Source: Pseudarthrobacter sp. PS3-L1 (lineage in GTDB: Bacteria; Actinomycetota; Actinomycetes; Actinomycetales; Micrococcaceae). From it: a stretch of 64,000 nucleotides of DNA. Positions 2,192-10,149 of the stretch are shown here, piece after piece. The notes below the pieces were generated by a model. The model made no database searches, had not been told where the DNA came from, and worked only from the letters and a program-made list of their open reading frames with translations. Each line of letters opens with the position of its first letter. The stretch's first letter is position 1. Made by a program: the position numbers and the translations under genes. The stretch lies in the NCBI RefSeq assembly GCF_030063285.1, contig NZ_JASISU010000002.1:620001-684000 (forward strand). The letters run 5' to 3'.

Positions 2192-5100
2192 TCACGCCAC
2201 GTGAGCCAACCGGAGCAACTGGTCGTCGCTGCTGATGTCCGCGGCGTTGTGCGTCACGAGGATTACCGTGCGGTTGTTGAGTCCGCGCCGGAGATCATGC
2301 AGCATGGTCTCCCCAATCTCGGCGTCCAGGTGTGCTGTGGGCTCGTCGAGAAGCACGACGTCGGCGCCCGACATCAGCGTTCGGGCCACCGCAAGCCGTT
2401 GCCGTTCGCCGCCGCTGAGGAACGCACCGCCCGGACCGATTCGGGTGTCGAGTCCTTGCGGCAGCCGGCGCAGCAGGCTCGACAGGCCAACGCATGCGAG
2501 CGCATCGCGCATGGCCGGTTCCAATGCCGCGGATCCACCACCTGCACCTGGTTCACAGGCAACAAGGAGGTTGCCGCGGATCGTGGAATCGAACAGATGG
2601 GCTTCCTGTGGACACCATGCTGCCCGCCCCGTGACCTGCACCGATCCAGCAGCTGGCGCGAGGAAGCCAAGCAGTACTGAAAGAAGCGTCGACTTCCCTG
2701 AACCGGAAGGCCCCGTGACTGCGAGCCAGCGCCCAGGTTCCACTGTGGCATTGAGTCCCCTAAAGACGGGTTCCCCTCCCGACCACGCTGCGGAGAGGTG
2801 CGACAGCTTCACGCCCTCGGATCCACCGTTGAGCGGCGCAACGGGAACCAACCCGTCGCCGTCGGCCGCGTGCTCACGCTCAAAAACTCCGGCAGCGGCC
2901 ATGCGTCGCGTGACAGCCCGCAGTGCAGGGAACTGCCGCACTGCTGTTGTCATCCCAGCGTAGGATTCCACAAGTGCCAACTGCATGAGGACAACAACTG
3001 CGGCTATTTCCGGGGCAATGCTGCCGTCGGCAATCCCTGGCCCGGCGAGGAACAGGCTCAGCAGTGCCGCGCCACCGCATGCTGCAACGGTGATGCCCTG
3101 GCCCAGGCCTTCGGCCCACGCAGTACGCTGCGTGGCGGCAGTTGCTTCCCGGTCCGCTTTTCGGAGCCGGGCAAGGATTGTGGGCGCAACAGCGTTGACC
3201 TGCAGTGCCGCGCGGCCATCGAGAGCCGAAGAAATACGCCGCAGGACGCCTTGCCGCAGGAGCTGCTCCTGGACGGCAGCCCGACGGTCAGCAACGAGGG
3301 ACACTACGGGAGCCACCAGCAGGCTCAGGATCAGCGCTCCCACCGTCGCAGGCAGTGCCGCTGGAACGAGAAGCGCAGTGGTGATGACGGCGGCGGCACC
3401 CACGCCCAGCGCTGTCACGGGGGGCAACGCCACGCGGGGAATCAGGTCACGGACAGTGTCTACGTCGTCAATGACGGTACCCAGCACGCTCCCACCCTGC
3501 AAAAGACGACGCAGTGACAGGGCCCGCCGGCTCAGGGATTCCCAGAGCCTGCCACGGAGAGTTGTTAGGGCCGAAAAGACAGCGTCGTGGAGGACAAGTC
3601 GCTCCGTGTATCTCAGGACAGCCCGGCCAATACCAAAGAACCTCACACCAACTATTGCCGTAAGCAGGTAGAGGATGGGCGGTTGCTCTGACGCCCTGAT
3701 GATCAACCACCCCGAGAGGCCAGAAAGCGCGACGGCGAACAGCGCTGCCAGGGTGCCCAGGAGCCCTGCCAGCAGGAACTTTGCCCGCACCGGAGCCAAC
3801 AGGCGGCGCAGAATGGTCACGGTACCCAGGCCTGCGCTGGCAGGCAGGTTCCCCGGCGCCACGTCGTCGGAGCCTGCCGAGGCGGCTAGGACCGTCTGTG
3901 GGACATCGTGCGCATCGCCTGTTGTCACACCGGCCAGGCTACTGGTGGCCACGTCAGCGTGTGGACGTACAGCGGTGGTGCCGCGGGCACTGGCGCCCAC
4001 CCACTCGCTGCGCCCGACGCGGGCGCTTGCATGGGCAGCAACTCCGAGGGGCAACCCCGCGCCGACGCTCACTGTCCGGTCCGCGATCTCGCGCGTCGCG
4101 GAATCGTGTGCAATGAGGATGGTTGTCACACGTCCGCGGAGGGTTTCGATGGTAGTCCGGAGCAGCGTAGCTGACGCATCGTCAAGGTGCGCAGTCGGCT
4201 CGTCAAGGAGTAGGAGCGTGGCACCGGCATGGATCCGGGCCAGCCCACAGGCGAACGCCACCCGACGTAGTTCCCCGGGGCTCAGTTCAGCAGGGTGCTT
4301 GTGTGCCAGATGACCAGCAGCAGCAGCTTCGAGGCACTGCTGCGCGGTCGCGGCAGAGATTGCCGATTCATGGGCCGCAGCCCCTACTCCCACGTGAGTG
4401 TCGGCACTGGCAAGGTAGAGCTGTACTTCCTCCAGTGCGCTGTCTTCGACCAGGACGGGATGCTGCGGAACATAGGCGATCCGTTGACGGTCCACTCCGG
4501 TCAGGGCACCCACCACGGTGGTCCCCGTTCCCCCGCGCACAGCCCCGGCCAGCACCGCTAAGACAGTACTCTTGCCAACGCCGCTGGGCCCGTCGAGGGC
4601 TGTGACAAGTCCAGCAGGGGCGCTGAAATCCAAGGGCCCCACCGCGGCGGCCTGCCGTCCGGGGTACGTCACGCTCAGGCCGACGGCGGTGATCGCCCTT
4701 GGCGCCGAGTCGCCGGCAGTCCTGCGGGAGGGATGGGCGATGGGCAATGCCAGGGGCTCCGGAGCTTCAGTTGTGGCGCGGGCGGCAGACAGAGCTGCCC
4801 TGCCATCATCGCTGGCATGGTGAGCGGTACCGAGCTCCCGCAGTGGCAGGTAGCAGTCAGGAGCAAGGATCAATGCCAGCAGCCCTGCCTCAAGGGGCAT
4901 ATCCCCATGGACCAACCGCACTCCGATGAAGACGGCTACGACTGCGACCGACAGGGTCGAGATCAGTTCCAGCGCCAACGCCGACAGGAATGCGGTCCGG
5001 AGGGTACCCATGGTCTTGTCCCGATAGTCCCCCGAGATGTCTTCCAACGCCTGTCGCTGCGCGCTCGCACGGCCAAGCCCAACCAGGACCGGGAGGCCCT

Positions 5101-5719
5101 TCGCCAATTCGAGCATGTGGCTGGAAAGCCGGGACAGCGCTGCCTGCGCGTCGCTGACCTTGTCCTCTGTGTAGCGTCCGATCAACACCATGAACAGTGG
5201 AACCAGCGGCACTGTTAGTACCACCACCAGGGCGCTGACCCAGTCAGCGAAAAGGATCCGGACACCGATCAGGAGGGGGATCGTCGCACAGTTGACCAAC
5301 GCCGGGAGGAACTGTGTGTAGTAATTGTCCAGCGCATCCAGGCCCCGTGTGGCCAGGACTGCCAGGCCGCCGTCGCGCCCTCCACCGTCCCCCGGCGCGT
5401 CCCGCAGTGCCCGCGAAAGAAGGCTGGCCCGCAGTTCTTCCTTGACCCCGAGGGCTGCCCGGCGAGCTGCCACGCCCTGTGCCCATACGGTCACGGCCCG
5501 CAGGAGTACTCCAGCGGCGCCAAGATACATCTGGGCCTGCCAGTCCAGGACCGGGCCAACAGAGCCCGCTTCAGCGACTGCACTGCTGGCCAGGCTGGAC
5601 AACAGTGAAGCGACTGCCTGGGCCATGAGGACCAGAGACAGCGCCTTCAACGCGGCAATCAGGCCCAGGATGTAAAGGGCTGCCCGCGCTGCGGGACCCT
5701 TGGGAAGTTCAGGACGCAC
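2192..5719 (-). CDS. cydDC: Fused thiol reductant ABC exporter CydDC
   Basis: This 1175-residue protein fuses the two halves of the CydDC heterodimer, the inner-membrane ABC exporter of glutathione or cysteine-type thiols needed to assemble cytochrome bd. The CydD half carries a transmembrane domain (residues about 12-300), Walker A GPSGVGKST near 380, a degenerate signature LSPGE and Walker B LLLLDEPTAHLDD. After an Ala/Ser-rich linker (about 590-650) the CydC half follows, with a second membrane domain, Walker [10 protein letters not shown] near 1000, canonical LSGGERQR and VVLLDEPTAHLD. The asymmetric ATPase sites are thus visible. It is the last gene of cydA-cydB-cydDC, starting 8 bp after cydB. 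Separate cydD and cydC genes are usual in proteobacteria; fusion is known in actinobacteria. Confidence 0.95.
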   Translation of the reverse strand: MRPELPKGPAARAALYILGLIAALKALSLVLMAQAVASLLSSLASSAVAEAGSVGPVLDWQAQMYLGAAGVLLRAVTVWAQGVAARRAALGVKEELRASLLSRALRDAPGDGGGRDGGLAVLATRGLDALDNYYTQFLPALVNCATIPLLIGVRILFADWVSALVVVLTVPLVPLFMVLIGRYTEDKVSDAQAALSRLSSHMLELAKGLPVLVGLGRASAQRQALEDISGDYRDKTMGTLRTAFLSALALELISTLSVAVVAVFIGVRLVHGDMPLEAGLLALILAPDCYLPLRELGTAHHASDDGRAALSAARATTEAPEPLALPIAHPSRRTAGDSAPRAITAVGLSVTYPGRQAAAVGPLDFSAPAGLVTALDGPSGVGKSTVLAVLAGAVRGGTGTTVVGALTGVDRQRIAYVPQHPVLVEDSALEEVQLYLASADTHVGVGAAAHESAISAATAQQCLEAAAAGHLAHKHPAELSPGELRRVAFACGLARIHAGATLLLLDEPTAHLDDASATLLRTTIETLRGRVTTILIAHDSATREIADRTVSVGAGLPLGVAAHASARVGRSEWVGASARGTTAVRPHADVATSSLAGVTTGDAHDVPQTVLAASAGSDDVAPGNLPASAGLGTVTILRRLLAPVRAKFLLAGLLGTLAALFAVALSGLSGWLIIRASEQPPILYLLTAIVGVRFFGIGRAVLRYTERLVLHDAVFSALTTLRGRLWESLSRRALSLRRLLQGGSVLGTVIDDVDTVRDLIPRVALPPVTALGVGAAAVITTALLVPAALPATVGALILSLLVAPVVSLVADRRAAVQEQLLRQGVLRRISSALDGRAALQVNAVAPTILARLRKADREATAATQRTAWAEGLGQGITVAACGGAALLSLFLAGPGIADGSIAPEIAAVVVLMQLALVESYAGMTTAVRQFPALRAVTRRMAAAGVFEREHAADGDGLVPVAPLNGGSEGVKLSHLSAAWSGGEPVFRGLNATVEPGRWLAVTGPSGSGKSTLLSVLLGFLAPAAGSVQVTGRAAWCPQEAHLFDSTIRGNLLVACEPGAGGGSAALEPAMRDALACVGLSSLLRRLPQGLDTRIGPGGAFLSGGERQRLAVARTLMSGADVVLLDEPTAHLDAEIGETMLHDLRRGLNNRTVILVTHNAADISSDDQLLRLAHVA

Positions 5720-5726
5720 GGAAAAA

Positions 5727-6776
5727 TCAGTCTTTCTTTAGGAGTGCTTTGGCAGCAATGGCCGGTAAGAAACTATGGGCTTCCGGGATATGGGCCGCGC
5801 TGACACGACGGCGGAACACCCAGTAGGTCCAGGACTGGTAGGCGATCACCAGGGGTAGTCCTACGGCCGCCACAATGCTCATCAGTCCCAGGGTGTAGTC
5901 AGACGAGGAGGCATTGCTGATGGTGAGGTTGAAAGCGGGATCGAGCGTCGAGGGCAGGACCACAGGGAAAGCCGCACCGAAGATTGCCCCGGTTGAACCC
6001 ACCAGCGCGATACCGAGAAGGACAAAAGCTTTGCCTTCGGCGCCCTTTCGCTCGGCAGACCATGCAGCCGCAGCGGCTATAACCGCACCCATCAGAACCA
6101 ACCAGGTCCAGAGTGTGCCAGTCAGGAGCTGGACGCTCACAGCCCACCCCACCAGGGGAACCAGAAGAGCCGGCAGGAGCCTGACAAACCACCGACGTGC
6201 CCGGACACGGATCTCGCCGTCTGTCTTGAGCGCCAGGAAAGCAAGCGCATGGATCAGGGAAAAACCAACGACGCCGAGACCACCGAGCAGCGCATAGCCA
6301 CTGAACCAGGCAAGCGGACCACCCTCGCGGTCGCCGTTGGCATTCAGCGGCAGGCCCGTGGTGGTCAAGGCCAACGCCGCGCCAACACCGAACGCTGCAA
6401 AGAATGAGCCAAGGGCAATGGCCCAGTCCCAGCGGTTCCGCCACTGCCGCGTATTGATTTTGCCGCGATATTCGAACGCCACTGCTCGGAAGATAAGGGC
6501 TGCAAGAACCACCAGGAGTGGGAGGTAGAGTGCAGAAAAGAGGGAGGCGTACCACATTGGAAAGGCCGCGAAGGTTGCGCCCGCCGCTGTCAGAAGCCAG
6601 ACTTCGTTTCCATCCCAGACCGGACCGACAGTGTTGAGCAGGACTCGACGCTCGGTGTTGTTGCGGGCAAAGAGCTTCATGAGCATGCCGACGCCAAGAT
6701 CGAATCCCTCAAGGAAGAGGTAGCCGGTCCAGAGCACCGCAATGGCGATAAACCAGATGGTGGGGAGTAGTTCCAT
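5727..6776 (-). CDS. cydB: Cytochrome bd ubiquinol/menaquinol oxidase subunit II
   Basis: CydB (349 residues) is the second integral-membrane subunit of cytochrome bd oxidase, the high-affinity terminal oxidase of the quinol branch. The family motifs GFDLGVGM (about residues 24-31) and the WDGNEVWLL stretch (about 54-62) are intact, and about nine hydrophobic helices can be traced. The length matches the family. A TAGGAC element lies about 8 bases before the ATG. It is preceded by cydA after 79 bp and followed at 8 bp by cydDC, consistent with one operon read on the minus strand. Confidence 0.96.
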   Translation of the reverse strand: MELLPTIWFIAIAVLWTGYLFLEGFDLGVGMLMKLFARNNTERRVLLNTVGPVWDGNEVWLLTAAGATFAAFPMWYASLFSALYLPLLVVLAALIFRAVAFEYRGKINTRQWRNRWDWAIALGSFFAAFGVGAALALTTTGLPLNANGDREGGPLAWFSGYALLGGLGVVGFSLIHALAFLALKTDGEIRVRARRWFVRLLPALLVPLVGWAVSVQLLTGTLWTWLVLMGAVIAAAAAWSAERKGAEGKAFVLLGIALVGSTGAIFGAAFPVVLPSTLDPAFNLTISNASSSDYTLGLMSIVAAVGLPLVIAYQSWTYWVFRRRVSAAHIPEAHSFLPAIAAKALLKKD

Positions 6777-6855: not shown

Positions 6856-8472
6856 TCAGTAGGCGAAGGCAAGGACATCGTCACCCTCCTTGGCGTTGCG
6901 GCCACTTGCTCCGGGGTCATCCTCATCCTCAGTACCGTCATGGCCACCGGATGCGTCCCCGCCGTGAGCGAGTTCGGGCATTGCCGAAACGACACCGCCC
7001 CTCACGTAGGTGACAAGGAGCTTGACCTCCACCACCAGGAGCACACCGTAGATCGTCGCGAGCACCACCAGCGAGGTGAGTAACTCCCCTGCTGTAACGC
7101 CAGGGGACACCGCAGCCGCAGTAAACATGAAGACCTGGTCTATTCCGTTCATGTCAGGATTGGGAGCCACCACAAAGGGCTGGCGCCCCATCTCGGTAAA
7201 GATCCAGCCTGCCGCGTTGGCCCCGAAGGGGGCCATGATGCCAAGAACAGCGAGACGCATCAGCCAGGGCGATGCTGGCACGGTGCCCTTACGTGTGATC
7301 CAGAGCGCCACAAGCGCTGCTAGGGCAGCCAGCCCGCCGAAGCCGATCATGGCTCGGAAACCCCAGTAGGTGACTTCCATGACCGGAACGTAGTCGATTT
7401 CCTGGCCCGCACGCTCGCCGTAGATCGGGTTGTCCGGCAGATTGGTTCCATAATCGGCCTTGTACTGGTCCAGCAGACTGTTGACACCCTGGACCTCGGT
7501 GGTGAAGTCGCCCTTGGCCAGGAAGGAGAGGATTCCGGGAACCTCGATAAGGGCCTTGATGTCATCACAGTTCTTGGAACCGAGGTTGCCAACGCTGAGA
7601 ATGGAGAAGCCGGTACCGTCATGGCAGGCCGCCTCGGCCGCAGCCATCTTCATGGGCTGCTGTTCGAACATCAGTTTGCCCTGCACATCTCCGGTAATAG
7701 CGGTGCCTGCAAAGGAGATCATGGCAACCACTGCACCGATCCGAAGGGACCGGATCCAGACGGTATGGTCGCCCTTATCCCGCCCAGGAGTGGTACTGGA
7801 TCCGGGAACGACCTTCCCATCGGGACCAACAGTGTCGATCCCGTCCTTGCGACGGCGCCACAGGTGATACCACGAGATGCCGAGGAGGAAACCGCCAGCA
7901 ACGGCCAAGGCGCCAAGGATAGTGTGCGGGACGGCCACTAGGGCCGTGTTGTTGGTGAAGACTGCCCAGGCGTCCGTCATGACGGGTCGGCCATCGATCA
8001 TCTCAACACCAACCGGGTGCTGCATCCAACTGTTGGCCACGATGATGAAGTAGGCGGAGAATACGGAGCCAATCACCGCAATCCACAGGCACGCCAGGTG
8101 AACCTTGGGTTTCAGCTGCTTCCAGCCGAAGATCCACAGGCCCAGGAAGGTCGATTCAACGAAGAAGGCCAGAAGCGCTTCGAGAGCCAGGGGGGCACCG
8201 AAAACATCTCCTACGAACCGGCTGTATTCGCTCCAGGCCATCCCGAACTGGAACTCCTGGACGATGCCCGTGGCAACACCCATGATGAAGTTGATCAGGA
8301 ACAGCTTGCCCCAAAACTTGGTCATCCGCAGGTACTCCTGCTTGCCGGTACGCACCCATGCGGTCTGGATGACAGCGACCACGAGGCCTAGGCCGATGGT
8401 CAGCGGCACCATCATGAAGTGGTAGACGGTAGTAATTCCGAATTGCCACCGGGCAATTTCCAAGGCGTCCAA
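6856..8472 (-). CDS. cydA: Cytochrome bd ubiquinol/menaquinol oxidase subunit I
   Basis: CydA carries the hemes of cytochrome bd. From a TTG start at 8472 the protein has 538 residues and begins MDALEIARWQFGITTVYHF, placing the heme-ligand histidine at residue 18 (E. coli His19). Also visible are VPHTILGA (the second heme-ligand His), YWGFRAMIGFG (the Met ligand region) and GRQPF, a variant of the usual GRQPW. The Q-loop is of the short type. The C-terminus ends in an acidic, Gly/Asp-rich tail with a few histidines. The frame extends upstream to 8577, but that stretch contains two inverted-repeat operators and reads unlike CydA, so the TTG start is preferred even though no strong ribosome-binding site precedes it. 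Confidence 0.93.
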   Translation of the reverse strand: MDALEIARWQFGITTVYHFMMVPLTIGLGLVVAVIQTAWVRTGKQEYLRMTKFWGKLFLINFIMGVATGIVQEFQFGMAWSEYSRFVGDVFGAPLALEALLAFFVESTFLGLWIFGWKQLKPKVHLACLWIAVIGSVFSAYFIIVANSWMQHPVGVEMIDGRPVMTDAWAVFTNNTALVAVPHTILGALAVAGGFLLGISWYHLWRRRKDGIDTVGPDGKVVPGSSTTPGRDKGDHTVWIRSLRIGAVVAMISFAGTAITGDVQGKLMFEQQPMKMAAAEAACHDGTGFSILSVGNLGSKNCDDIKALIEVPGILSFLAKGDFTTEVQGVNSLLDQYKADYGTNLPDNPIYGERAGQEIDYVPVMEVTYWGFRAMIGFGGLAALAALVALWITRKGTVPASPWLMRLAVLGIMAPFGANAAGWIFTEMGRQPFVVAPNPDMNGIDQVFMFTAAAVSPGVTAGELLTSLVVLATIYGVLLVVEVKLLVTYVRGGVVSAMPELAHGGDASGGHDGTEDEDDPGASGRNAKEGDDVLAFAY

Positions 8473-8510
8473 GGCGGTCCCAACTGTTGGCGGGGTTTCT
8501 TCAGTTTGAA

Positions 8511-8527
8511 TTCTACAGAACGTAGAA
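8511..8527. promoter_or_regulatory. Inverted-repeat operator 1 upstream of cydA
   Basis: A 17-bp perfect inverted repeat, TTCTAC-AGAAC-GTAGAA, lies 38 bp upstream of the proposed cydA start codon. It has the size and symmetry of sites bound by BlaI/MecI-type winged-helix dimers, and such a regulator is encoded divergently at 8731. Assignment to that regulator is inferred from position and repetition. Confidence 0.7.
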
Positions 8528-8533
8528 ATCAAC

Positions 8534-8550
8534 TTCTGCCGAGTGTAGAA
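8534..8550. promoter_or_regulatory. Inverted-repeat operator 2 upstream of cydA
   Basis: The element TTCTGC-CGAGT-GTAGAA is the same 17-bp repeat with one mismatch in the left arm. Its centre is 23 bp from that of operator 1, roughly two helical turns, so two dimers could bind on similar faces of the DNA near the cydA promoter. Confidence 0.6.
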
Positions 8551-8618
8551 CACATGAAGTATCCCAGCGAAATCCAACCGCCACTAGGGTCCAACGACTC
8601 ATAAGGCACCGGCGTTAG

Positions 8619-8635
8619 TTCTACTGAACGTAGAA
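8619..8635. promoter_or_regulatory. Inverted-repeat operator 3 upstream of the BlaI-like gene
   Basis: A perfect 17-bp repeat, TTCTAC-TGAAC-GTAGAA, differs from operator 1 only at one spacer base and lies 96 bp upstream of the BlaI-like start codon. Its arms extend by one more pair (G...C). The location suggests autoregulation of the repressor-protease operon. Confidence 0.7.
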
Positions 8636-8730
8636 ACACGCGCGAAAACCCTGTAAAGTTTGGTGAAGTATTTAAGAACGATGACGGCCGGACATCAGCA
8701 GGCGGCCGCTGGAACCGAAAGAAGAATCGA

Positions 8731-9117
8731 ATGGCAAGCCTTGGGGATCTGGAAAGAGCGGTCATGGACCTCCTGTGGGCTGGTCGTGAAGCGGCCACAG
8801 CAAACACCCTGCGCGATCAACTTGCGCAAACCTCGGTTGCCGTCGGAGGAACTGCCGGACACGAGGGCAAGGAACTTGCCGTCACCACGGTGTTGACGGT
8901 TCTTTCCCGGCTGGAGAAAAAAGGCTTGGTCGAACGGGAGCGCGGAATGCGCCCGCACCGCTACCAGGCCGTCTCAAGCAGGGCTGACCACACTGCCGAA
9001 CTCATGCACGAAGTCTTGGGCTCCGCTCCAGACCGGGAGGCGGTCCTCGCCCGTTTCATTGGCTCCGTCACCTCGACCGAAGCGGAGACCCTGCGTAAGC
9101 TCCTGGGTCGCGACTGA
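8731..9117 (+). CDS. BlaI/MecI/CopY family transcriptional repressor
   Basis: This 128-residue protein has an N-terminal winged-helix domain (about residues 3-75) with the family patterns LGDLERAVMDLLW and VTTVLTVLSRLEKKGLVERE, the latter being the recognition helix and start of the wing. A C-terminal helical dimerisation part (about 85-128) follows. BlaI-type repressors bind inverted repeats as dimers and are inactivated by cleavage by a partner M56 protease. Here the protease gene begins 6 bp downstream. No beta-lactamase or penicillin-binding gene is nearby; the divergent target is cytochrome bd. A GAAAGAAG stretch lies before the ATG. Confidence 0.92.
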   Translation: MASLGDLERAVMDLLWAGREAATANTLRDQLAQTSVAVGGTAGHEGKELAVTTVLTVLSRLEKKGLVERERGMRPHRYQAVSSRADHTAELMHEVLGSAPDREAVLARFIGSVTSTEAETLRKLLGRD

Positions 9118-9123
9118 CCGACC

Positions 9124-10149
9124 ATGTTCTGGACCTCATATCTTCTGGCGGTCCTCGCGATAGCGCTGGCATGGCCAGTGCCTATCATGCTCTCCCGTGC
9201 GCAGTGGCCCGCACGGGCGCCCTTCACCGCCATGATTCTTTGGCAAACCATCGCCTTGGCGGGTGGTTTGTCAATGATTGGCGCAATGCTTGTTTACGGT
9301 CTCGAACCTGCGGGCGAAAACCTCATTGCCGGAGTGCGTGCCGTCGCCGGCATGGTCTTGTTCAACGCTCCCACCACAGTTCTGGGCTTCTGGCACATCT
9401 TTGCCCTCTCGGCAGCAGCGTTGTTGACTGTCCATCTTCTTTTCACACTGCTGCTGACGTACCTGCGCATCCAAAGGCAACGCGGTAGGCATCGGGAACT
9501 CCTCGACCTCCTGGCCAAGCCGACCGCAGACGGTTCAGCGACCATGGTCATCAACCACGACTCTCCGGTGGCTTACTGCCTACCCGGAGGTGCGAGGTCC
9601 GTGACTGTCCTTTCCGATGGGCTCATGTCCGCACTGGAGCCTGACGAACTGCGGGCCGTCCTGCGCCATGAAAATGCCCACCTGAGCCAGCGACATCACC
9701 TGCTGCTTTGGGCATTTGCCGCCTGGCGTCAGGCCCTGCCATGGCTGCCAACGACCCGGCTTGCACAGGACGCAGTCAACTCCCTGATCGAGATGCTGGC
9801 TGATGACGTGGCCCTTAAGACGGAGAGCAAGGCGTCCCTAATCAAAGCTATTGCGATAGTGGCCAGTGCGCCAGAACGCGCGAAGGCGGCTGCACGCTTC
9901 GCACAATCCGGACCTGACGCCCAAGAGCGCACTGACACCCTCTCGCCTGCGGTCGGTTACCCGGCGTCCCCGTCGCTAGAGCTCATGCAAGCGTCGGATT
10001 CCGCGCGGACCACAGCGTCCCGGGTGAGTCGTCTTTTGTCCCCGCAGGAGCCTCTGGCGCCAGTCACCACAGGTGCTGTGCTGCTCCTGTGCGGGATGCT
10101 GCTGGCCGTCCCGACGGCACTCCTGATTGTGCCGGGCCTGCTCGGCTGA
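9124..10149 (+). CDS. M56 family (BlaR1-like) membrane metallopeptidase without sensor domain
   Basis: This 341-residue membrane protein has hydrophobic segments at about residues 3-22, 35-60, 72-90 and 97-117, and a C-terminal one at about 313-338. Between them is a cytoplasmic zinc-protease domain with HENAH at residues 182-186 (HExxH) and a downstream Glu near 223 in EMLADD as the likely third ligand. BlaR1/MecR1 proteins carry an extracellular penicillin-binding sensor after this domain. Here the protein ends with a membrane segment, so it must sense something else or need another partner. It is co-transcribed with the BlaI-like repressor, which is the presumed substrate. Confidence 0.88.
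   Translation: MFWTSYLLAVLAIALAWPVPIMLSRAQWPARAPFTAMILWQTIALAGGLSMIGAMLVYGLEPAGENLIAGVRAVAGMVLFNAPTTVLGFWHIFALSAAALLTVHLLFTLLLTYLRIQRQRGRHRELLDLLAKPTADGSATMVINHDSPVAYCLPGGARSVTVLSDGLMSALEPDELRAVLRHENAHLSQRHHLLLWAFAAWRQALPWLPTTRLAQDAVNSLIEMLADDVALKTESKASLIKAIAIVASAPERAKAAARFAQSGPDAQERTDTLSPAVGYPASPSLELMQASDSARTTASRVSRLLSPQEPLAPVTTGAVLLLCGMLLAVPTALLIVPGLLG

Follow-up and report, generated by a model that had tools for sequence, protein, structure and literature searches.

A BlaI-type repressor and a sensorless BlaR-like protease beside the cytochrome bd genes of Pseudarthrobacter: a probable switch for respiratory genes

In Mycobacterium tuberculosis, the repressor BlaI is reported to bind the promoters of the cytochrome bd and ATP synthase genes, a result credited to Sala et al. 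2009 (PMC5473688, eLife 2017), and its binding before the atp operon is reported to have been demonstrated by gel shift (PMC12565901). The BlaR protein of mycobacteria is described as having no sensor domain (PMC5473688), and what such a sensorless BlaR detects is stated in print to be an open question (PMC9834060, PMC5473688). The stretch of 64,000 nucleotides analysed here, called the window, comes from the 3.57-Mb genome of Pseudarthrobacter sp. PS3-L1 (contig NZ_JASISU010000002.1, positions 620,001 to 684,000). It carries a BlaI/MecI-type repressor gene (blaI) and the gene of a BlaR-like M56 protease, which are divergent from cydA, with cydB and then a fused cydDC downstream of cydA. The reading proposed here, to which we give a probability of roughly 0.74, is that BlaI represses cyd and other respiratory genes and that the M56 protease relieves this repression upon respiratory failure.

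An earlier note on this DNA had described the divergent arrangement and a protease without a penicillin-binding sensor, and both are borne out by Pfam and a structure model. The note knew of no described example. This stands for the divergent arrangement: titles and abstract openings in the open literature yielded no description of cydA, blaI and M56 genes so arranged outside mycobacteria, nor of the operator array and most of the exact-site targets presented below. It does not stand for the link between BlaI and cyd, which is not new, as binding of BlaI to cyd has already been reported for M. tuberculosis (PMC5473688). The features of the locus are as follows.

8731..9117, plus strand: blaI, BlaI/MecI-type repressor gene; 128 amino acids, no cysteine; PF03965 at 72.3 bits against a cut-off of 22.6
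9124..10149, plus strand: BlaR-like membrane zinc protease gene (M56/M48 gluzincin); 341 amino acids, HENAH at 182–186, C-terminal sensor domain absent
8511..8527, no strand: predicted operator 1 (cydA-proximal); TTCTACAGAACGTAGAA, exact palindrome
8534..8550, no strand: predicted operator 2 (cydA-distal member of the tandem pair); TTCTGCCGAGTGTAGAA, one mismatch (TTCTGC)
8619..8635, no strand: predicted operator 3 (blaI-proximal); TTCTACTGAACGTAGAA, exact palindrome
8542..8547, minus strand: probable cydA −10 box TACACT within operator 2, from the statistics of the TANNNT register
8654..8659, plus strand: probable blaI −10 box TAAAGT, within a block conserved among the aligned genus loci; the −35 would lie under the right arm of operator 3
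6856..8472, minus strand: cydA, cytochrome bd subunit I; PF01654 at 503 bits; probable start TTG at 8472
5727..6776, minus strand: cydB; TIGR00203 above its cut-off
2192..5719, minus strand: cydD-cydC fused in a single reading frame; 1175 amino acids; TIGR02857 and TIGR02868 both above their cut-offs

The TTG at 8472 is the most probable start of cydA, with relatives carrying ATG at the same position. For PF03965, the genome yielded one full-length protein, BlaI itself, and one partial match (22.7 bits); the nearest BlaI proteins among the named loci are those of Pseudarthrobacter and Arthrobacter (Micrococcaceae), and the best solved-structure relative of BlaI is 2g9w.

Operators between cydA and blaI

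The palindrome TTCTAC-N5-GTAGAA had been noted earlier in three copies, at 8511–8527, 8534–8550 (with one mismatch) and 8619–8635, two on the cydA side and one on the blaI side, and these positions, the mismatch and the placement are all as described. When up to two mismatches are allowed, the window holds three matches, all of them between cydA and blaI, and shuffled versions of the window hold a mean of 0.67, with three reached in 5 of 100 shuffles. These window statistics alone are only suggestive for the three palindromes, and the argument for them is therefore drawn from comparison between genomes. Thirty-seven genomes are labelled as the own genome or as the same genus, 36 of them with a match to the protease, and the comparison within the genus covers 30 loci (L011–L040), namely the own locus and the best 29 of the 35 genus relatives with such a match. 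Three exact palindromes are present in 28 of the 29 relatives, and the own locus has two exact copies and one with a single mismatch; L018 has kept only the blaI-proximal copy, and in L021 the tandem pair lies about 800 bp from the blaI copy. The arms of the palindromes are invariant among the genus loci, while the spacers vary. Across the family, the exact tandem pair is found in 166 of 295 genomes and in 21 of 32 genera (the own genome counts as a miss in this tally owing to its one mismatch), and a control with the reversed pattern gives 0 in every row. Conservation of this kind clearly lifts the palindromes above chance as candidate operators. Loss of the repeats from relatives with the same gene order, which the earlier note had named as evidence against its idea, was looked for in the genus, the family and the wide scan described below, and the idea withstood it. 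The dyad operator that is expected of BlaI/MecI repressors, in their own promoter and in the target promoter, is present in both places as predicted sites.

The tandem pair was also sought in a one-genome-per-species collection of about 85,000 species and 257 billion bases, in which about 0.01 chance matches are expected at equal base frequencies. Among the 80 loci listed, from at least 120 stretches, 72 have a cydA start no more than 450 bp away, seven lie at a blaI gene without cydA, and one (L099) lies at neither. A divergent blaI is present in 65 of the 72 cydA loci, with the M56 gene visible in 62 and the other three ending at the locus edge; among the remaining seven, L135 ends at the locus edge, and the other six are considered below. 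The listed loci include those of Micrococcaceae, Microbacteriaceae, Geodermatophilaceae and one Pseudonocardia, and the module serves two groups of CydA proteins, with about 55% identity and more, and with 41–47%, to that of the window. The co-occurrence of cydA, blaI and M56, put forward earlier as a check, is thus found in the family genomes and in the wider scan.

Tandem sites were also seen in L081, L083, L094, L099 and L125 (Clostridia, Tyzzerella, Planctomycetota, Verrucomicrobiales and Oscillospiraceae), with blaI adjoining in four of the five. In Aurantimicrobium, tandem operators (L076:1403-1447, L089:3972-4016 and L134:6126-6167) lie between a distant BlaI–protease pair, of about 29–35% identity, and a gene for a PCuAC copper chaperone, which is followed by a Dyp-type peroxidase gene (by Pfam for L134). 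This arrangement is possibly the same switch serving copper or iron.

The operator also largely follows the regulator. In a family set of 30 cydA loci (the best 30 of 37 genomes with a match, among them the own genome and two others of its genus), an exact operator is present in 29 and an adjacent blaI-M56 pair in 27. Two loci of one genus (L305 and L311) have kept the tandem pair at cydA; their genomes carry blaI-M56 on a different contig, where a single exact operator precedes blaI (L361, L362). The cydA of L315, which has no operator, belongs to a genome (G093) without an M56 match. In G202 and G227, the tandem pair at cydA is kept (L274, L275, L276) and blaI-M56 has moved together with its operator (L363, L364), and in G215, blaI-M56 with one operator (L365) and the tandem pair are on different contigs. 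The blaI and M56 genes stay together in all five moved loci that were read. As a side observation, G202 carries two separate cyd operons, and a tandem pair accompanies each of them (L274 and L275); its blaI-M56 pair lies on a third contig. Forty-seven family genomes have no M56 match. The 20 of these that were listed represent four genera, are not mutually independent and include two without a cydA match; the tandem pair is missing from 19 of them, and the exception (G144) is an 85%-complete draft.

The positions of the operators suggest how repression could work. In a set of 125 cyd-linked pairs from 140 loci, with a few genomes counted twice and a simple motif used to tell which side faces cydA, the centres of the tandem operators are 24 or 25 bp apart in 99 pairs. 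A TANNNT hexamer spans the operator arm in 93 of the 125 distal copies (TACACT in 68), versus 15 of the 125 proximal copies, and TACACT is also present in two of three mycobacterium-like cydA sites. From this register we infer that the −10 box of cydA lies inside operator 2, so that bound BlaI and RNA polymerase would be mutually exclusive. In the genus alignment, TA-rich sequence is conserved 18 bp downstream of operator 3, which suggests that blaI is autorepressed. A BlaI dimer would accordingly bind TTCTAC-N5-GTAGAA and repress the divergent transcription of cydABDC and blaI-M56, with operator 2 covering the probable cydA −10 box, operator 1 just downstream of it, and operator 3 overlapping the probable blaI promoter.

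Predicted targets beyond cytochrome bd

A genome-wide search for the 17-bp repeat, which the earlier note had proposed, points to a regulon wider than the note had foreseen. Five genus genomes (G000, G002, G020, G096 and G016) contain 5, 8, 7, 8 and 8 exact sites, respectively, with 0–2 matches to the reversed pattern in the last four, and these 36 sites are confined to six loci, each with orthologous flanks, of which the cyd/blaI locus holds 14. Three of the other loci have an exact site in all five genomes: before a gene of the histidine phosphatase family followed by resA-, ccdA-, resB- and ccsA-type genes for cytochrome c maturation, upstream of the hemQ, ferrochelatase (hemH) and hemC genes, and before a gene whose product, a small membrane protein, has no Pfam match (L257, L263, L267, L273 and L004; 126 amino acids in L267). 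Exact sites are also found upstream of hmp, below an Rrf2 gene, in four of the five genomes (not in G000), and upstream of a gene for a PNPOx-like flavoprotein in three. Among 30 family loci, the cytochrome c maturation site is exact in five (three loci from the own genus and the two g28 members) and not exact in the other 25.

Sites with one mismatch were rejected as evidence by number and were used only where their flanks are orthologous. The comparison took in 17 of the 20 such sites of G002, G016 and G096, chosen by look-alikes, and orthologous partners were found for all 17 of this selected set. Sites in all four genomes compared stand before a small unassigned gene and atpB of the ATP synthase operon, before sucC, before an ATP-binding cassette (ABC) transporter gene divergent from a helix-turn-helix gene (sufR by eye), and behind a PIG-L deacetylase gene (the L009 group). 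In three of the four, a site separates ctaE from a cytochrome c gene that reads as qcrC, with an identical spacer in all three, so that its conservation says less. Three of the four also have a site that precedes the gene of a small four-helix protein, which itself lies behind a gene for a 2-oxoacid dehydrogenase acyltransferase. The L194 group lies behind a glycosyltransferase gene (wecA-like by eye) and before the atp operon. In the own genome, five of the ten one-mismatch sites outside cyd have orthologous partners, and the sites L006, L008, L192, L193 and L195, which have no partner in the comparison, were dropped. Taken together, the conserved sites point to a likely respiratory regulon. 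BlaI would also repress the genes for cytochrome c maturation, hemQ-hemH-hemC, hmp, and the flavoprotein and small membrane-protein genes and, through weaker sites, those for ATP synthase, sucC, the ABC-transporter operon and qcrC.

The protease, its signal and rival readings

The protease scores above the cut-off for PF01435 (M48). Its AlphaFold model, with a mean predicted local distance difference test (pLDDT) score of 89.3, has N-terminal helices at 2–25 and 33–63, a short helix at 67–79, a long one at 89–130, a zinc-protease domain and then a C-terminal helix at 313–340. Pfam finds no penicillin-binding sensor domain in the protein, which ends with this last predicted helix, at the point where S. 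aureus BlaR1 continues into its sensor. Foldseek alone returned no match at E <= 0.001, and BlaR1 tops only the second look with VIA, where S. aureus BlaR1 entries head the list; the match to 8exs (Z 10.4, which can also reflect a common helix arrangement; root-mean-square deviation 6.1 Å, 224 aligned residues, 13% identity) covers BlaR1 residues 3–291, that is, its membrane and protease parts. Membrane helices are thus found around an HExxH zinc protease with a downstream glutamate, and by analogy with BlaR1 the protease site would face the cytosol. The 53 full-length cyd-linked homologues (L071–L150; fragments and three Aurantimicrobium proteins left out) are 307–362 amino acids long. W28, P33, W40, Q41 and P62 are common to the cyd-linked and mycobacterial-family proteases, which makes them candidates for reading the signal.

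Under the proposed mechanism, a failing electron-transport chain or failing membrane energetics would lead the protease to cleave or inactivate BlaI, and the loss of BlaI would raise the bd oxidase along with the components needed to rebuild respiration. The earlier note had the pair control the low-oxygen oxidase. Control of cydA by the BlaI–M56 pair is very likely from operator conservation, and that part stands. As an account of the whole it is too narrow, since sites also lie before aerobic genes (ATP synthase, sucC and cytochrome c maturation), so that plain low oxygen is not an obvious signal. The mix of bd oxidase, cytochrome c maturation, haem, nitric oxide detoxification, ATP synthase and sucC suits failing respiration better than low oxygen. 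Signalling of the respiratory or redox state by the protease, as the note had supposed, is plausible but unproven. In M. abscessus, clofazimine is reported to induce cyd and ATP synthase (PMC8765290), which fits the proposal.

Several observations weigh against it. The targets mix low-oxygen and aerobic functions, and no single simple signal is evident. Sites with one mismatch are not enriched over the reversed control (13, 16 and 15 versus 16, 21 and 12), so that the case for atp, sucC, the ABC-transporter operon and qcrC is one from conservation. The protease reaches 24 bits for PF05569 (M56/BlaR1), where the cut-off is 31. No blaI appears inside the fetched stretch at six of the 72 cyd tandem loci, and an exact tandem pair is missing from at least 83 of the 248 family genomes that have an M56 match; some of these carry single or imperfect operators (L319, L322, L324), and some M56 matches may be other M56 proteins. 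In M. tuberculosis under a beta-lactam, cyd is reported to go up and the ATP synthase genes down (PMC5473688), which a single shared repressor does not explain. Binding, expression or protease experiments for this clade were not found in the literature.

Among the other explanations, the one that survives best, though it is unlikely, is that BlaI is the regulator and the adjacent M56 protein is not its inactivator, with release brought about by another protease or by binding of a small molecule. Direct proof of BlaI cleavage in any actinobacterium was not found in the literature, as far as the sources consulted extend, and how M. tuberculosis, whose BlaR1 homologue has no sensor, detects beta-lactams is called unclear (PMC9834060, Nature 2023). 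Against this stands the constancy of the pair: blaI and M56 share a strand in all 65 scan loci where both were located and are 0–87 bp apart in all but one of these (L117, which ends at the locus edge), they travel together in the five moved loci, and no variation is seen at the zinc-site residues H182, E183, H186 and E223 across 54 cyd-linked and 20 mycobacterial-family proteins.

Slightly less probable is a switch for copper or haem status, in which failure to assemble the aa3 oxidase would induce the copper-free bd oxidase, much as CopY controls copper export. Targets such as ctaA (in mycobacterium-like genomes), hemQ and cytochrome c maturation would suit it, as would the Aurantimicrobium operators beside the copper chaperone gene and the peroxidase gene that follows; hmp, sucC and atp do not fit copper, and the NCBIfam CopY model gives 24 bits against a cut-off of 122. 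Cysteine is absent from the BlaI of the window and from 59 of 62 cyd-linked homologues, so that sensing of copper or redox state by BlaI cysteines was rejected and the input most likely comes through the protease. The least probable account, a classic beta-lactam or cell-wall switch in which the pair senses wall damage via a partner and cyd is induced as a by-product of wall stress, draws on the family origin of BlaI and the protease and on the reported induction of blaI-blaR and cydAB by amoxicillin-clavulanate in M. tuberculosis (PMC5473688), and it runs against a protease without a sensor domain and a set of respiratory targets, with no beta-lactamase or wall gene recognised among the nearest reading frames of the six exact-site loci (beta-lactamase genes were not searched for genome-wide).

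The reading of BlaI–M56 as a respiratory switch bears on the question of what a sensorless BlaR detects. In this soil bacterium, the pair adjoins what is probably its main target, the operators are clean and the regulon is small, which makes the question testable by reporter assays, and the pair would provide a respiration-sensing switch governing the bd oxidase, an enzyme whose knock-down is reported to raise the sensitivity of M. abscessus to clofazimine (PMC8765290). A broader idea, advanced tentatively and at somewhat less than even odds, is that sensorless BlaR-type proteases sense the state of respiration or membrane energy, and that control of respiration, as opposed to beta-lactam resistance, is the main, possibly ancestral, task of actinomycetotal BlaI–BlaR pairs. 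On this idea, a conserved helix, W-Q-x-IALAGGLS-x-IGA, of which the mycobacterial proteins keep W, Q and S, would read the signal within the membrane.

Comparison with described systems

A class-wide search with the 2g9w fragment found 20 loci, 80–94% identical; 17 of them belong to genus g60, which is probably Mycobacterium, and the three others would be related. All 20 of these mycobacterium-like blaI promoters carry TACKAC-N5-GTAGTA (TACGAC in 19, TACTAC in one). Three g60 genomes with a BlaI 88–94% identical to the query have 7, 6 and 9 sites of the form TACTAC-N5-GTAGTA with up to one mismatch, below the 25, 19 and 22 of the reversed control. With genes assigned by Pfam, and with the site of G596 at 3546090 left out of the gene reading, sites precede blaI, cydA, the atp operon and ctaA in all three genomes, and genes for a DUF4383 protein and a DUF427 protein in two of three each. 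A small four-helix membrane protein without a Pfam match was also seen behind a BlaI-type site in one mycobacterium-like genome (L368) and in the genus studied here (L283/L288/L294), the resemblance being by eye; it may be a respiratory accessory protein.

Among the described systems, S. aureus BlaR1–BlaI and MecR1–MecI share with the window the repressor family and the layout of membrane helices and zinc protease, and BlaR1–BlaI shares a divergent target (PMC9834060). The window differs from BlaR1–BlaI in having no beta-lactam sensor, in its respiratory targets and in an identity of 13% over the aligned part. CopY and TcrY, which are related winged-helix repressors, respond to copper through a cysteine metal-binding motif; the BlaI of the window has no cysteine, is paired with a protease and scores 24 bits for NCBIfam TIGR02698 against a cut-off of 121.95. 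Other regulators are also reported to control cydAB, namely SenX3–RegX3 in M. tuberculosis (PMC5874750), HrrSA in C. glutamicum and Rex in Streptomyces. SenX3–RegX3 is a two-component system, and HrrSA and Rex are two-component or NADH-sensing; none of the three is a repressor with a protease.

The BlaI–BlaR pair of M. tuberculosis (Rv1846c–Rv1845c) resembles the pair described here in joining BlaI to a sensorless BlaR and in its reported cyd and atp targets, and predicted operators are likewise found here at cyd, where they are exact, and at atp, where the site has one mismatch and is conserved in four of four genus genomes. Unlike in M. tuberculosis, cydA is here divergent from blaI, with two operators on the cydA side and one on the blaI side, and the operator arms are TTCTAC as opposed to the TACTAC of mycobacterium-like genomes. 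To the reported cyd and atp targets, the exact sites found here add genes for cytochrome c maturation, hemQ, hmp, the flavoprotein and the small membrane protein, with no blaC-like target recognised among them.

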